Shown here: positions 693 to 11,113 of the stretch, piece by piece
Position numbering within the stretch: position 1 is the stretch's first letter
Layout: every line of letters starts with the position of its first letter
IMG/VR virus record: IMGVR_UViG_3300009154_000186
Location: 1-30,469 of that record
Length of the DNA stretch: 30,469 nt
Source: a virus
Direction: 5' to 3' (one strand)
Notes under the pieces: model-generated
The model's input: only the letters and a program-made list of their open reading frames with translations
What the model was told of the DNA's origin: nothing
Database searches by the model: none
Position numbers and translations under genes: made by a program

Positions 693-777
693 GGATGCGT
701 AGGAAAATTGGTAACCCCAGTAAACTGTAAATCCACCGCCTCTGGCACTGCTGGTTCGATCCCAACCTGTGGAGCCA
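693..777 (+). tRNA. Degenerate tRNA-Tyr(GTA)-like gene
   Basis: About 85 bases with a D-loop TTGGTAA, an anticodon loop CTGTAAA (GTA, Tyr), a long variable region as expected for bacterial tRNA-Tyr, a T-loop TTCGATC and a terminal GCCA. However, the acceptor 5' strand GGATGCG does not pair with the 3' strand CTGTGGA. The anticodon stem GTAAA/TCCAC has two A-C mismatches and the T stem GCTGG/CCAAC has one C-A. It is probably a decayed tRNA. A functional tRNA would need editing or repair. Confidence 0.55.
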
Positions 778-1773: not shown

Positions 1774-1847
1774 GTTGAAGTTAGTGTACTGGTTGCACCG
1801 CTGTCTGTGAAACAGCTAGAGAGGGTTCGATTCCCCACTTCAACCCA
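1774..1847 (+). tRNA. tRNA-His(GTG)
   Basis: Acceptor TTGAAGT/ACTTCAA plus an extra G at -1 facing C73, the identity signature of tRNA-His. Anticodon stem GCTGT/ACAGC with loop CTGTGAA gives GTG. The T stem is weak (GGG/CCC plus an A-C mismatch) and one base short. CCA is encoded. Confidence 0.9.
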
Positions 1848-1882
1848 TATTTAAAGGTACTAACAAGTGCATTTAAATATGG
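1845..1882 (+). repeat. Inverted repeat starting at the tRNA-His CCA
   Basis: CCATATTTAAA (1845-1855) is perfectly complementary to TTTAAATATGG (1872-1882). Inside, after a G-A mismatch, GTAC/GTGC pairs around the loop TAACAA. The stem includes the tRNA's own CCA. No T-run follows, so it is not a standard terminator. Confidence 0.75.
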
Positions 1883-2389: not shown

Positions 2390-3010
2390 ATGTCACAAGA
2401 TAAAACAACTAACGGTTTGTTTGATTTTCCCAATAGCAGCAGTGGTATTATATCTGCCAAAGCTATTGGGAATATTTATGAATTTTACTTATCAGGCAAT
2501 ATTGAAGAACCTGATGCTTATATAGACTGGTTTGATACTATTCGTCATGCTACACAACGGGATGTTGTTAAAATTTACATAAACAGTTGCGGTGGTGATT
2601 TATATACCGCTATTCAATTTATGCGGGTTTTATATGACACAGATGCCACAGTAGTTTGCAGCGTGGAAGGTGCTTGTATGAGTGCTGCAACCATGATTTT
2701 TATGTGTGCAGACGAACATGAAGTAACACCTCACTCAACTTTTATGTTTCATAACTACAGTGGCGGAACATTTGGTAAGGGCGGTGAAATGATTGACCAA
2801 CTGCATCATGAACGCAAGTGGTCAGCAAAACTAATGGGAGATGTTTACAAGCATTTCCTGTCAGATGAAGAAATAGCCTCTATACTAGATAACAAAGATA
2901 TTTGGATGGATGGTGAGGAAGTTGTTCTAAGAATGAATATTAGACTAGAACAAATTGATTTAGAAATCGAAAAGGAAAACCAAAATGGCAACAAAACCCA
3001 AAAAACCTGA
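2390..3010 (+). CDS. ClpP-like serine protease (S14 family)
   Basis: 206 residues with the ClpP/crotonase fold pattern: an oxyanion/substrate segment INSCGGDLYTA (residues 64-74), catalytic Ser98 in GACMSAATM, catalytic His121 in STFMFHNYSGG, and a downstream Asp in LDNKDIWMDGEE that fits the third triad position. The length matches ClpP. Phage ClpP-like proteins often act as prohead proteases, but no capsid gene is nearby, so the substrate is open; alternatives are a cytosolic protease or a partner of host ClpX. The ATG comes 13 bases after the tRNA-Cys CCA with no Shine-Dalgarno. Confidence 0.85.
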   Translation: MSQDKTTNGLFDFPNSSSGIISAKAIGNIYEFYLSGNIEEPDAYIDWFDTIRHATQRDVVKIYINSCGGDLYTAIQFMRVLYDTDATVVCSVEGACMSAATMIFMCADEHEVTPHSTFMFHNYSGGTFGKGGEMIDQLHHERKWSAKLMGDVYKHFLSDEEIASILDNKDIWMDGEEVVLRMNIRLEQIDLEIEKENQNGNKTQKT

Positions 3011-3065
3011 AAAAGCCCCAATGCCAATGCCAGCCCCAAAACCTGCAAAACCCATGAAGTATTAA
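2985..3065 (+). CDS. Very small Lys/Pro-rich protein
   Basis: A 26-residue frame overlapping the end of the ClpP-like gene by 26 bases. AAGGA sits 10 bases before its ATG. The product is almost entirely Lys, Pro, Ala and Met. The good ribosome site and the fact that it fills the gap before tRNA-Gly suggest it is real; no function can be assigned. Confidence 0.45.
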   Translation: MATKPKKPEKAPMPMPAPKPAKPMKY

Positions 3066-3074
3066 TATATTAGT

Positions 3075-3148
3075 GCGTGGTTAGTTTAATGGTAAAATCA
3101 GACGTTGCCAACGTTTAGTTAAGGGTTCGATTCCCTTACCCCGCACCA
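3075..3148 (+). tRNA. tRNA-Gly(GCC)
   Basis: Acceptor GCGTGGT/ACCCCGC with one T4-C69 mismatch, anticodon stem AGACG/CGTTT with loop TTGCCAA (GCC), T arm AAGGG/CCCTT, encoded CCA. Confidence 0.92.
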
Positions 3149-3161
3149 GCTAAATTTAAAC

Positions 3162-3190
3162 TTGAATTATCAATTAAACTTTGTTATAAT
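3162..3190 (+). promoter_or_regulatory. Sigma70-type promoter, extended -10
   Basis: TTGAAT (3162-3167), a 17-bp spacer ending in TGT, then TATAAT (3185-3190). It drives the CDS at 3215 and the tRNAs behind it. Confidence 0.85.
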
Positions 3191-3521: not shown

Positions 3522-3596
3522 GCATCCTTAACTCAGCGGTAGAGTGTCTCCTTTACACGGAGAAAGTCGGCGGTTCGAACCCGTCAGGATGTACCA
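3522..3596 (+). tRNA. tRNA-Val(TAC)
   Basis: Acceptor GCATCCT/AGGATGT (G1-T72), anticodon stem TCTCC/GGAGA with loop TTTACAC (TAC), T arm GGCGG/CCGTC around TTCGAAC, encoded CCA. It lies three bases after tRNA-Gly(TCC). Confidence 0.96.
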
Positions 3597-3690
3597 TATA
3601 AAAACACATTATAGTGACGCATGAGCAGGTCATTAACTTCCGCTGGTTACGTCAATCGTAAGTGAGTGAAGATAGTGTGTTTTTATATGG
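3594..3690 (+). ncRNA. Structured RNA element between tRNA-Val and tRNA-Asp
   Basis: A 19-bp stem pairs 3594-3612 with 3672-3690 (one T-G wobble). It starts at the CCA of tRNA-Val and ends at the first two bases of tRNA-Asp. Inside, TGACG (3615-3619) pairs with CGTCA (3650-3654), and AGCAGG pairs with CCGCT (bulged A) around a 10-base loop. The core stem AAAAACACAT/GTGTGTTTTT matches the tmRNA intervening stem AAAAACGCAT/GTGCGTTTTT with a compensatory change. It may be a terminator-like or processing hairpin or an independent small RNA; the role is not known. Confidence 0.6.
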
Positions 3691-3764
3691 CTTTAAAGTG
3701 TTCACGGACGCACGCCACACTGTCACTGTGGAAGAGTGGGGATCGTTACCCCCTAAAGCCGCCA
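3689..3764 (+). tRNA. tRNA-Asp(GTC) with unusual T-loop
   Basis: Acceptor GGCTTTA/TAAAGCC is perfect, D stem GTGT/GCAC, anticodon stem CCACA/TGTGG with loop CTGTCAC (GTC), encoded GCCA end. The T-loop reads ATCGTTA rather than TTCGAAT-like, so the usual T54-A58 pair is replaced by A54 and T58. T49 faces C65. Confidence 0.88.
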
Positions 3765-4721: not shown

Positions 4722-5576
4722 ATGAAAATCGCAGTTTGTTCAGACTTGCACTTAGAGTTTGACACATTAACACTAGAAAATACGGAAAATGCCCAAGTTT
4801 TGATCTTGGGTGGAGATATTTGCGTGGCTGCTGATTTGTTGGTCAGAGACGATGCTGGCATTTTTGACAGATTTGATCGTAGTGCAGCACTACATGAGTT
4901 CTTTCAAATGTGCTGCCGTAACTTTAGTCACGTTGTATATGTTGCTGGCAATCACGAACACTACAATGGTGACTATGCCAAAACTTTTACAATTTTGCGC
5001 GATAGACTGGCTTACTTGCCTAACCTACACATCTTAGACAAACAAACATTTGTGTTAGATGACGTTACCTTTATTGGCGGCACGCTGTGGACTGATATGA
5101 ACAATGAAGATAGTATGACCTTACGTCATATTAAAGGCATGATGAATGACTTTCGTTGTGTTAAAAACAGCAGTCGTGAAGTTAACTTCAAAGACTACGA
5201 AGGTAAGTTTCATACTCGCGCAGCTACCTTTTCACCAGAAGATGCTGTTGTAGATCACAAATTAATGATAGCTTATATTGCTGAAATTATTTTAGGCAAG
5301 TTTGACAAAAAGTTTGTGGTTGTTGGGCATCATGCTCCTAGTAAGGCATCAACTCATCCTCGCTATAAGCACGAAGAATTAATGAATGGTGCTTATAGCA
5401 GCGATCTAGATGACTTTATAATTGATCATCCACAAATCAAATTGTGGACTCATGGTCACACTCATGAAGACTTTGACTATCAAGTTGGCTCAACCAGAGT
5501 AGTTTGCAATCCACGTGGTTACGCAAACTATGAAGATCGTGCTGACAAGTTTCAGTTAAAGTTTGTAGAAGTATAA
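4722..5576 (+). CDS. Calcineurin-like metallophosphoesterase
   Basis: 284 residues with all main motifs of the two-metal phosphoesterase fold: DLHLEF (residues 8-13), LGGDICVA, VAGNHEHY, VVGHHAPS and THGHTHEDFDY. AAGGA precedes the start. The substrate is unknown; these phage enzymes may hydrolyse phosphodiesters or phosphoproteins. It differs from the gp47-like nuclease at 19651, which has an ATPase partner. It ends two bases before the tmRNA acceptor piece, so it may be cotranscribed with it from 4203. Confidence 0.85.
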   Translation: MKIAVCSDLHLEFDTLTLENTENAQVLILGGDICVAADLLVRDDAGIFDRFDRSAALHEFFQMCCRNFSHVVYVAGNHEHYNGDYAKTFTILRDRLAYLPNLHILDKQTFVLDDVTFIGGTLWTDMNNEDSMTLRHIKGMMNDFRCVKNSSREVNFKDYEGKFHTRAATFSPEDAVVDHKLMIAYIAEIILGKFDKKFVVVGHHAPSKASTHPRYKHEELMNGAYSSDLDDFIIDHPQIKLWTHGHTHEDFDYQVGSTRVVCNPRGYANYEDRADKFQLKFVEV

Positions 5577-5578
5577 TT

Positions 5579-5643
5579 TATTGTTGTATGAAGCAACGAG
5601 AACTGTGTCTTGGACGGGGGTGCGAATCCCCCCACCTCCACCA
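5579..5643 (+). ncRNA. ssrA: tmRNA acceptor piece
   Basis: T arm GGGGG/CCCCC around TGCGAAT, acceptor 3' strand CACCTCC, discriminator A and encoded CCA at 5641-5643. The 5' end is set only by the upstream stop codon at 5576; a small GTTG/CAAC hairpin lies at its start. This piece would be charged with alanine. Confidence 0.88.
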
Positions 5644-5721
5644 AAAACGCATCTGCCAGTCGCCCTGGTTGTATGGTACTATTCTAGAAATGAGGTTCAA
5701 GTCCTTTGGTGCGTTTTTGAT
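5644..5721 (+). other. ssrA: tmRNA intervening segment with tRNA-like features
   Basis: This segment joins the two mature ends and should be removed. Its ends pair (AAAAACGCATC with GGTGCGTTTTT). With A5640-T5721 and the acceptor stem this makes one helix of about 20 bp broken only by a C-A mismatch, with CCA inside it. The interior has a tRNA-like T-loop (GAGG, TTCAAGT, CCTT) placed correctly before the 3' strand, but no acceptable anticodon arm, suggesting tRNA ancestry or mimicry for RNase P and 3' processing. Confidence 0.75.
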
Positions 5722-5886
5722 GGGGGTGCATAGTTTCGACAGGGCAAGTAGTAACAGAGTGGACAACACATCAGAGCAGATGTTAAAACTAAACAAAAGT
5801 AAACGCAAACGACTCACAGTTCGCATTAGCAGCTTAAACACTGCTTAGGGTTTCGACAGGTTTCCTCGTAACAGAATAACCTGTCA
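5722..5886 (+). ncRNA. ssrA: tmRNA coding piece with ANDSQFALAA tag
   Basis: It begins GGGGGTGCATAGTTTCGACAGG, a typical tmRNA 5' end. The resume codon is GCA at 5805, after AGTAAAC; the tag is A-N-D-S-Q-F-A-L-A-A with stop TAA at 5835-5837. The last four residues, ALAA, are the usual ClpX-recognised end. The 3' part forms hairpin GACAGGTT/AACCTGTC (5855-5862, 5878-5885), then ATTTTATT, which may define the end or terminate transcription. Confidence 0.92.
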
Positions 5887-5911
5887 TTTTATTAACTAAA
5901 CTAAAGAAAAT

Positions 5912-8682: not shown

Positions 8683-9324
8683 ATGAAACCAACAATCGCA
8701 ATTTTTATTCACAATCCTTGGTGTGAAACTGAGTGTGGCTTGGCTATGGCTGTGTCTTTTTCCAAATATTTTAATGTAAAAACCATCGGCATTGAAGACC
8801 TACACACAGATTTTTTAGCTACAGTAGATGTATTAGCATTTCCTGGTGGTATGGGCGATAGTGATGATTTTCACAGTGTATTCACCGCTGAGCAGATCAA
8901 AGCTGTTCAAAATTACGTTGCTGCTGGTGGTAAATATTTTGGTATATGTATGGGTGCTTACTGGTCAGGACCAAACTACTTTAATGTGGTAAGTGATCTA
9001 GAATTAGAACAGTATATTGCTCAACCAACTGCAGATGTTATAACTGATGGTGCAACAGTAGCTAATGTAACTTGGAACAATGTTCCTTATAGTATGTACT
9101 TTTATGATGGTTGTACTATACTCGGCAACAACATGGAAGTTATAGCTACATACGCTAATGGTGATGCCATGGCTGCCATTCAAGGCAATGTTGGCATGAT
9201 TGGTTGTCACCCAGAAAGCCAAGAATGGTGGTTTGTTGAAGGTGGAATGGACAAAGTTTTATACAACAAAGTACACTCTGAACTAATGTGTGATTTTGTA
9301 CAACGATTGATTGATAATGAATAA
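8683..9324 (+). CDS. BPL_N / class I glutamine-amidotransferase-like protein
   Basis: 213 residues with a flavodoxin-like start (IAIFIHNPW), VDVLAFPGGMGDSDDF, a nucleophile elbow GICMGAYW (Cys near residue 88) and GMIGCHPESQEWW (His near residue 171). This combination of Cys, His and CHPE matches the N-terminal biotin-protein-ligase-like (BPL_N) branch of the amidotransferase/DJ-1 superfamily. The substrate is unknown. It has its own promoter and GAAAGGGA ribosome site and overlaps the ligase gene by 8 bases, so the two are made together; why is not clear. Confidence 0.75.
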   Translation: MKPTIAIFIHNPWCETECGLAMAVSFSKYFNVKTIGIEDLHTDFLATVDVLAFPGGMGDSDDFHSVFTAEQIKAVQNYVAAGGKYFGICMGAYWSGPNYFNVVSDLELEQYIAQPTADVITDGATVANVTWNNVPYSMYFYDGCTILGNNMEVIATYANGDAMAAIQGNVGMIGCHPESQEWWFVEGGMDKVLYNKVHSELMCDFVQRLIDNE

Positions 9325-10270
9325 ACTTAAACAATTCTTAGATTCGGCTGCTTTAGCATATTATGCAGGCAGCCCGTTTATCAGTGATGAAACTTTTGAT
9401 CGCTTGGCAGAGTCTATTGGCTACAACGAGGTAGGCGCACGTCAACATGAAAACATCAAAAAACATTTCAACCAAATGTTTTCTTTGCAAAAATACTATG
9501 AAAATGAGGGTGAAGCCCCTTTAAAAGATATAAAAAATATTGCTATTACCCCTAAGCTTGACGGTGCTGCCATTAGCATTTTATATGTAGATGGCAAGCT
9601 TTGTCAAGTTCTAACTCGTGGCAATGGCATCGAAGGCACAGATATTACAGATAAGTTTATAGCTAGAAAAGACTTAGTGCCACTAGAAGTTTCACGCAAA
9701 GATGTTTTTCAAGTAACTGGTGAAATTGTAGCCCCTAAGCTGATACCAAATAGCAGAAACTACGCTGCTGGTTCTTTAAACTTAAAAAGTTTAGAAGACT
9801 TTTGTATTAGAGGCATAAGTTTTTATGCATATGGCGTCTATCCAAGTTTATCAAAAACTTTTGATGAAGACATGGTTAACTTAGAATCTTTTGGGTTTGA
9901 AACTGTATATGCAAAAGACTTACATAATATTTATCCTTGTGATGGTTTGGTTTATCGTATTAATGATAATAAAATATTTGAAAGCCTTGGTTATACTGCA
10001 AAGCATCCAAGAGGCGCATATGCTAGAAAAGAACGTCAACAAGCCGTTGAAACAAAACTAATTGATGTAGAATGGCAAGTTGGCAAAAGCGGTAAGGTAA
10101 CACCAGTAGCAATACTAGAACCAGTAAAAATTGAAGACAAAGTTATTACTAGAGCAACTTTAAATAACCCAGGTTTTATTGAAAGTTTAGGAATTTGTAT
10201 TGGTGATACTGTTGCCATAGCTTTAGCTGGCATGATTATCCCTCAAGTGCTGCATAAAGTAGATGCTTAA
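9317..10270 (+). CDS. ligA: NAD-dependent DNA ligase, N-terminal half (adenylation and OB)
   Basis: 317 residues. Start chosen at ATG 9317, inside the upstream gene. Domain Ia is present (AYYAGSPFISDETFD, residues 14-28), which binds NMN of NAD+. The adenylation motif is K80-L-D-G, then TRGNGIEGTDIT, TGEIV, and the OB-fold end ITRATLNN ... GDTVAIALAGMIIPQV. The protein stops exactly where bacterial LigA continues into the zinc finger; the rest is encoded at 10355. Split NAD ligases are known in some phages such as T5. It seals nicks, including Okazaki fragments. Confidence 0.92.
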   Translation: MNKLKQFLDSAALAYYAGSPFISDETFDRLAESIGYNEVGARQHENIKKHFNQMFSLQKYYENEGEAPLKDIKNIAITPKLDGAAISILYVDGKLCQVLTRGNGIEGTDITDKFIARKDLVPLEVSRKDVFQVTGEIVAPKLIPNSRNYAAGSLNLKSLEDFCIRGISFYAYGVYPSLSKTFDEDMVNLESFGFETVYAKDLHNIYPCDGLVYRINDNKIFESLGYTAKHPRGAYARKERQQAVETKLIDVEWQVGKSGKVTPVAILEPVKIEDKVITRATLNNPGFIESLGICIGDTVAIALAGMIIPQVLHKVDA

Positions 10271-10354: not shown

Positions 10355-11113
10355 ATGCAAAAGATTTTTATACCAACTCAATGTCCCTGCTGTTCTTATA
10401 CGCTGGAAACAGTCAATGAACAACTGTTTTGTAGAAATTTAGCTTGTGATGCACAGCTTGGTAAAAAACTTGAACATTTTTGTAAAGTGTTACAGATAAA
10501 GGGCTTTGGTCCTAAAACTATAGAAAAGTTAAATCTAAGAGATATAACAGAAATATTCTATCTAGAGCTACCAGACGTGTCTGCAGTTCTTGGAGAAAAA
10601 ACAGCAGTAAAACTATTAGATGAAATTGAAAGAGCTAAACAGGCAGACCTTGCCACAGTACTTGCATCTTTCTCTATTCATTTAATAGGCGCTACAGCAG
10701 CAGATAAGATATGTAAAGTGGTTTCTTCAATTGAAGAAATTACTGCAGATGCTTGTAAGCAGGCAGGGCTTGGAGATAAGGCAACAGCCAGTTTGTTAGA
10801 CTGGTTAGAGCTAGAGTATCCAGAAATGAAAGAGTTTTTACCTTTTTCATTCAAATCTACTGTAAAAATAGTTGACACAAACGCTAAAAAAGTTTGCATT
10901 ACTGGTAGATTGAAGTCTTATAAAAAGAAAGCCGACGCTGAGGGTGCTCTCAAAGCCGCAGGCTACATTCTAGTAGATTCAGTTACAAAATCAACTGACT
11001 ATCTAATAGATGAGGAAGACAAAATGTCAGCAAAAAGAGAAAAAGCCGTTCAATACGGAATCAAAATTATAACCGATATAAATGTTCTATTGAAAGAAAT
11101 TAAAAATGACTGA
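10355..11113 (+). CDS. NAD-dependent DNA ligase, C-terminal half (Zn finger, HhH, BRCT)
   Basis: 252 residues. A four-Cys zinc finger (C10, C13, C26, C31), then helix-hairpin-helix repeats (IKGFGPKTIEKLNL near 49-62; SFSIHLIGATAADKICKVV), and a C-terminal BRCT domain (KVCITGRLKSYKKKADAEGALKAAGY with SVTKSTDYLI). This is the DNA-binding part of LigA as a separate protein, expected to assemble with the 9317 product. It has its own promoter, so the two parts can be made in different amounts. It overlaps the next gene by 8 bases. Confidence 0.92.
   Translation: MQKIFIPTQCPCCSYTLETVNEQLFCRNLACDAQLGKKLEHFCKVLQIKGFGPKTIEKLNLRDITEIFYLELPDVSAVLGEKTAVKLLDEIERAKQADLATVLASFSIHLIGATAADKICKVVSSIEEITADACKQAGLGDKATASLLDWLELEYPEMKEFLPFSFKSTVKIVDTNAKKVCITGRLKSYKKKADAEGALKAAGYILVDSVTKSTDYLIDEEDKMSAKREKAVQYGIKIITDINVLLKEIKND

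Follow-up and report, generated by a model that had tools for sequence, protein, structure and literature searches.

The window, a 30,469-base IMG/VR virus record, carries a gene that a first-pass annotation had read as a phage-encoded, two-piece tmRNA with its pieces in permuted order. This locus raises two questions: whether the gene is a genuine tmRNA, and what lies in the intervening segment (IVS) between its two pieces.

The phage and its tmRNA gene

Replication genes in the window belong to phage families (a DnaB-like helicase, an SbcC-like nuclease subunit, and a ribonucleotide reductase), and the nearest relatives of its DNA polymerase are from T5-like phages (~49% identity). An NAD-dependent DNA ligase appears to be split into two frames, 9311–10270 (adenylation and OB) and 10355–11113 (BRCT), both on the + strand. 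A sequence at 694–777 (+) resembles a tRNA-Tyr (GTA) with a long variable arm and is unreported by ARAGORN and Rfam.

ARAGORN called a permuted tmRNA in the window with the tag ANDSQFALAA, the tag that had been predicted. The covariance check proposed by the first-pass annotation was run with cmscan and returned two models above their cut-offs: RF04321 at 5582–5837 (+) (115.5 bits against a gathering score of 47, E = 3.8e-22) and RF01850, beta_tmRNA, at 5519–5891 (109.1 bits against a cut-off of 84, E = 1.3e-32). A chance match to tmRNA is excluded by these E-values. The boundaries first assigned to the gene (5579–5886) are correct to within a few bases. The RF01850 alignment covers model positions 1–331, and the final hairpin of the model is absent from the window sequence. 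The parts of the gene are as follows.

5582–5643, + strand: acceptor piece, with the T arm, the acceptor 3' strand CACCTCC, A, and CCA (cmscan RF04321 and RF01850, ARAGORN)
5644–5721, + strand: IVS, cassette family E2 (fold, CCA-anchored stem score)
5722–5891, + strand: coding (mRNA-like) piece, starting with GGGGGTG at the expected RNase P site and with a terminal hairpin at its end (cmscan beta_tmRNA)
5805–5837, + strand: tag reading frame, ANDSQFALAA and stop (ARAGORN, coding part 255–287 of the gene)

Read from the sequence, the acceptor CCA lies at 5641–5643. The acceptor stem claimed earlier forms between GGGGGTG (5722–5728) and CACCTCC (5633–5639) and contains a G3-U70 wobble (G5724 with U5637, also read from the sequence), the pair recognized by alanyl-tRNA synthetase. 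The tag frame has a hydrophobic tail of the -ALAA type, then a stop. Judged on its sequence, the gene is an authentic permuted tmRNA and belongs to the betaproteobacterial type.

We searched for SmpB in 18 related phage contigs of 54–327 kb and found none, using a search that was positive in 10 of 14 control genomes; the phage tmRNA therefore presumably works with host SmpB. Processing and alanine charging would most likely be carried out by host enzymes, and together with host SmpB the RNA would rescue ribosomes and add the tag ANDSQFALAA. A ClpP-like protease is encoded a few genes away at 2390–3010 (+) (phrog_1827, E = 3.8e-63; Pfam CLP_protease, E = 6.5e-11). Because ClpP partners degrade tmRNA-tagged proteins, the closeness of this gene to the tmRNA may be more than a coincidence.

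A 2022 survey of sequenced phages counted 53 two-piece tmRNAs, 50 of which came from marine or aquatic samples; like the first-pass annotation, it proposed that phage tmRNA tags host proteins (PMC9004378). Novelty of the phage tmRNA gene itself (Melnitz type) was considered and rejected, as such genes are already published (PMC9004378); the first-pass identification of a phage two-piece tmRNA was correct, but the gene is not a new kind. A pattern scan identified permuted tmRNA genes in at least 119 IMG/VR contigs.

The intervening segment of the window

The IVS, initially taken for a plain spacer, does not fit that description: it is 78 nt long, ~50 nt beyond the beta_tmRNA consensus (~29 nt in the RF01850 alignment), has a fold of its own, and belongs to a set in which cores are swapped. 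The fold consists of an outer stem (5642–5653 with 5708–5719), a D-arm-like hairpin (5655–5669), and a T-arm-like hairpin (GAGG-TTCAAGT-CCTT, 5692–5706; T-arm-like sequence GGTTCAAGTCC). The CCA-anchored stem score is 10.5, against a shuffled maximum of 7.5; thermodynamic folding alone was uninformative, with z-scores near 0. The E2 core also occurs in L098, L100, L111, L154, and L155, each time as a tmRNA IVS. It was seen in tmRNAs only, and no inter-tRNA copy was found.

A nested tRNA was considered for this segment and rejected, there being no ARAGORN or Rfam tRNA match at 5644–5721. By its fold and these searches, E2 is tRNA-like in shape yet not a tRNA.

A related element between two tRNAs

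All intervening segments were compared with all fetched DNA. In this comparison, window positions 3601–3684 align over 84 nt, at 80% identity, with the intervening segments of three other tmRNA loci (L038, L045, and L055; E values down to 1.6e-15). The matching element (E1) lies between two tRNA genes, and a shorter stem occurs elsewhere in the window.

3522–3596, + strand: tRNA-Val(tac), upstream flank of E1 (ARAGORN)
3594–3690, + strand: stand-alone cassette, family E1, CCATATAAAAACACATT-core-AGTGTGTTTTTATATGG (similarity to tmRNA IVS, covariation, stem score)
3689–3764, + strand: tRNA-Asp(gtc), downstream flank of E1 (ARAGORN)
1845–1882, + strand: short CCA-anchored stem after tRNA-His, CCATATTTAAA-loop-TTTAAATATGG (stem score)

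E1 starts with the CCA of tRNA-Val, ends with the first two G of tRNA-Asp, and has a core of two covarying hairpins. Its CCA stem score is 16 (shuffled maximum 8.5). The element at 1845–1882 scores 12.0 (shuffled maximum 9.0) and seems to be such a stem in which a short loop replaces the core. The T loop of the tRNA-Asp (3689–3764, +) is unusual, reading GATCGTTACC where GGTTCRANTCC would be usual, and T loops like it recur in L132, L220, L238, and L253.

The E1 core pattern is present at 35 viral loci besides the window, and every viral copy (the 35 loci and the window) is either a tmRNA IVS or lies directly after a tRNA CCA. There were no exact E1 matches in 84,980 species genomes, a result that ties the element to phages rather than to a host origin, and a class-wide search with an E1 model, run without a positive control, gave no match. 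Rfam (4227 models) produced only chance-level partial overlaps with 3594–3690, up to E = 5, and no match to two other cores up to E = 1. Y RNA/YrlA (RF02553) matched at chance level at a tRNA pair only (21 bits against a cut-off of 69). Neither E1 nor E2 had a match in 50,697 cultured phage records.

Covariation was analyzed in ten E1 copies that had been found without use of the core letters. Across these copies, 98.5% of cells are paired, compared with 34%–43% in slid controls, and 13 pairs are changed on both sides, a level that none of 500 shuffles reached. The two core hairpins alone are 99.4% paired with six pairs changed on both sides; three of 500 shuffles reach six pairs, and none reaches the cell number or the score. 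The loop letters ATGAGCAG are constant in all ten copies though the surrounding helix changes. Control-backed covariation covers E1 only, with weaker support in one five-sequence family (L179, L183, L242, L247, and L256), in which AGTCTTGCAAGC is kept, the helix varies, and six pairs are changed on both sides. These alignments indicate that at least one family, E1, is under selection for both structure and loop letters.

Exchange of cores within the tmRNA slot

IVS lengths across the phage tmRNAs are 60–90 nt, a range set by the choice of search pattern. With few exceptions the IVS folds as a hairpin closed by an outer stem of the form AAAGCATATT...AATATGCTTTTGAT, and the interiors fall into ~42 unrelated sequence families. 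In a full scan, 33 further tmRNA genes share the exact 55 flanking bases of the window. These 34 tmRNAs, with the window included, have a similar outer stem and seven unrelated core families, and among them the tag ANDSQFALAA is combined with four different cores. Two pairs (L031/L063 and L049/L087) are 100% identical over 60-nt flanks on both sides and have cores at 0.38–0.41. Unrelated cores occur in 190 of 254 closely related tmRNA pairs. No stand-alone copies of one IVS family, F0, were seen in 30 loci.

These results bear on whether the window simply holds an ordinary phage permuted tmRNA, with a long IVS that reflects lineage variation and an incidental resemblance to the inter-tRNA element. 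Permuted tmRNAs do vary in IVS length, and a nominally archaeal IVS even holds a tRNA-Ala (PMC11915505). This account is contradicted by the 84-nt match, with its 80% identity and its compensatory changes, and by the seven unrelated cores inside identical flanks, and we consider it very improbable.

Four of 84,980 species genomes match the tmRNA pattern with a 60–90 nt IVS (L156, L157, L158, and L159). L156 and L158 are bacterial MAG contigs with a phage IVS: that of L156 also occurs, letter for letter, in the viral set, and that of L158 is closely related to a different IVS of the set. The outer stem is missing from L157 and L159. The L158 genome has the sole permuted tmRNA above the cut-off among 73 genomes of its class, which makes misbinning of phage DNA the probable origin of the contig. 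When 21 IVS families were searched against the 50,697 cultured phage records, the single match was to Xanthomonas phage Kintu (43 nt at 95%). In this cultured phage (L177), the region at 1240–1620 is unannotated, precedes a tRNA-Trp, and apparently contains several hairpin RNAs, one of which has the core of the L017 tmRNA IVS.

Stem-anchored elements across viral contigs

A pattern describing the stem only (CCAT...CACATT, 38–68 nt, AGTGTG...ATGG) matches at least 119 viral contigs. Read backwards, it had no matches in 20 records, compared with 19 for the forward pattern. The letters that the pattern specifies are necessarily constant, and the outer-stem letters are partly imposed by the searches; the seven free stem positions pair at 91.7%, against an arm-shuffled mean of 78.8% and maximum of 80.5%. 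The stems in tmRNAs (GCAYATT) differ somewhat from those between tRNAs (CACATT).

The fetched loci contain 142 distinct elements. The start of 96 of them coincides exactly with the CCA of a tRNA called by ARAGORN, in most cases tRNA-Lys(ttt). The other 46 have no ARAGORN tRNA at the CCA; some of these are at a contig edge and some follow degenerate tRNAs or other CCA-ending RNAs. Downstream, 74 of the 142 have a tRNA within 60 nt, and in 41 of these the first base of the tRNA is exactly at the terminal GG of the element. In a 96-kb contig (L132), one tRNA cluster has three elements whose outer stems are identical and whose cores differ.

Such ends could also belong to small mobile DNA (MITE-like or homing cassettes) with inverted ends recognized by a recombinase and tRNA 3' ends as targets. 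The similar inverted ends, the precise insertion after CCA, and the several copies per genome, including the three with identical stem arms in L132, are as expected of such elements. Changes in one arm are, however, compensated in the other, a sign that pairing of the RNA is under selection. No duplicated target sites were noticed. Mobile elements share their interior, unlike the unrelated cores of this set, and the position of the IVS slot is dictated by the tmRNA. A mobile DNA origin is therefore judged improbable.

Other RNAs were observed in the same islands. In L218, a GOLLD RNA (2633–3098) has CCACCA as its last bases and is directly followed by a CCA-anchored cassette (3103–3190), and the cluster also has tRNAs and a permuted tmRNA. 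GOLLD (RF02032) had no match in the window. An RNA-like sequence, GAGGACYGGGATTCC...CAGCAACACTG..CCA, is not called as a tRNA and recurs upstream of cassettes (L132, 3520–3593; L211, before 691; L214, before 11484; L220, before 277 on the minus strand). This sequence is possibly another unannotated RNA of phage tRNA islands.

Taken together, the tmRNA IVS and inter-tRNA sets contain ~127 core families, most with a single member. Two of the 127 (E1 and the L029 family) occur in both contexts, and one of the L132 cores belongs to the L029 family. Identical tRNA-Lys and tRNA-Met genes surround unrelated cores in L189 and L264 (0.46; random, 0.48), and the tRNA-Lys/tRNA-Met junction of L208 is an empty slot with a 4-nt gap. 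Several stand-alone cores contain T-arm-like sequence. None of 23 stand-alone core families matched the 50,697 cultured phage records.

The stems might do no more than direct processing (as RNase III or RNase E sites, for instance) or spacing, around neutral cores that recombine occasionally and have no function. Consistent with this, the outer stem is the most constant part, the cores are extremely diverse with mostly single-member families, and slots can be empty (L208) or short-looped (window 1845–1882). Neutral filler does not readily explain why E1 and the L179/L183/L242/L247 family keep their loop letters while their helices change compensatingly, or why E1 and the L029 family turn up in settings as unrelated as the tmRNA and several tRNAs. 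We regard the neutral reading as doubtful, while giving it some weight.

Swappable RNA cassettes as the preferred reading

The explanation we favor, with a probability of roughly 60%, is that the window has a genuine permuted tmRNA whose IVS is one of a wider class of swappable phage RNA cassettes; the tmRNA anatomy, the slot position, the E1 covariation, and the core exchange are read directly from the sequences. Each cassette would be a hairpin occupying the space from the CCA of one tRNA-like RNA to the first base of the RNA that follows. Its outer stem would resemble those of other cassettes, and its core, about 35–70 nt long, would be interchangeable and have a fold of its own. The rules of tRNA processing, with an RNase P site at one end and CCA at the other, are established. 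Since the cassette ends coincide with the mature ends of the flanking RNAs, tRNA processing would excise the cassette exactly: host RNase P would cut at the downstream 5' end, 3'-end nucleases would trim up to the CCA, and maturation of the flanking tRNA or tmRNA pieces would free the cassette as a closed small hairpin RNA. Cores would pass from one phage to another when recombination takes place in the stems or in the adjoining tRNA or tmRNA sequences.

We infer that the cassettes are expressed, excised, and functional as cargo. Because cores change within identical flanks and at least one family is selected, a cargo role for the released RNAs is more probable than one as filler. The diversity of cores in otherwise identical slots suggests cargo acting on variable host factors, such as decoys or anti-defense RNAs. 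An anti-defense or host-takeover RNA is our leading guess, as phage tRNA islands host unexplained stable RNAs and are known sites of counter-defense (PMC11555353, PMC13096335). No direct link between the cassettes and any defense system was found.

More broadly, phages of aquatic bacteria may keep a large, undescribed repertoire of small structured RNAs (~127 core families in this sample) that are housed as swappable cassettes with a shared CCA-anchored stem in tRNA spacers and in the tmRNA IVS, released by tRNA processing, selected for diversity, and most likely used in anti-defense or host takeover, a generalization that we hold tentatively and at slightly less than even odds. The apparently new elements are the exchangeable, structured IVS cassette and its kinship to inter-tRNA elements, possibly a new class. 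Constant-stem, variable-core elements in phage tRNA clusters were absent from the literature searched, a scope that left out preprints and many subscription papers. The consulted passages of the 2022 account of phage tmRNAs likewise describe neither IVS cassettes nor modules shared with tRNA spacers (PMC9004378).

The IVS of two-piece tmRNAs, hitherto seen as waste, would gain a possible role as a cargo slot, and an RNA module of a type present in both would link tmRNA to phage tRNA islands. Should the cores have a function, the tRNA clusters of phages would amount to dense banks of swappable small RNAs and be a place to seek RNA-based counter-defense. The claim is directly testable because the slot and module ends are defined to the base.

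Comparison with known systems

The window gene resembles the two-piece tmRNAs of Alphaproteobacteria, Betaproteobacteria, and Cyanobacteria (RF04321, RF01849–RF01851) in its permuted order, two paired pieces, tag frame, and tRNA-like acceptor end with G3-U70. It differs in the IVS, which is ~29 nt in the bacterial beta consensus and 78 nt with an exchangeable structured core in the window. The OM43 phage Melnitz, like the window, combines a complete permuted ssrA with tRNA genes, but that ssrA gene is of the alphaproteobacterial type and associated with a riboswitch, unlike the window gene (PMC9004378). The permuted tmRNA of the nominally archaeal GCA-2688965 has a tRNA-Ala inside its IVS, a case described as unique, and shares with the window an RNA module lodged in the IVS (PMC11915505). 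That module is one intact tRNA, whereas the phage modules are many non-tRNA cores with a common stem.

T4 rnaC/rnaD, GOLLD, and ROOL are, like the cassettes, non-coding RNAs of unexplained function in phage tRNA islands. Each is one defined RNA, of 119–139 nt for rnaC/rnaD and hundreds of nucleotides for GOLLD and ROOL; exchangeable cores in a common stem are seen for the cassettes. In Escherichia coli, 3'ETS-leuZ is a tRNA spacer fragment that is freed by tRNA processing and acts as a sponge small RNA. It is a mechanistic precedent for a released spacer RNA but does not form a conserved hairpin cassette.
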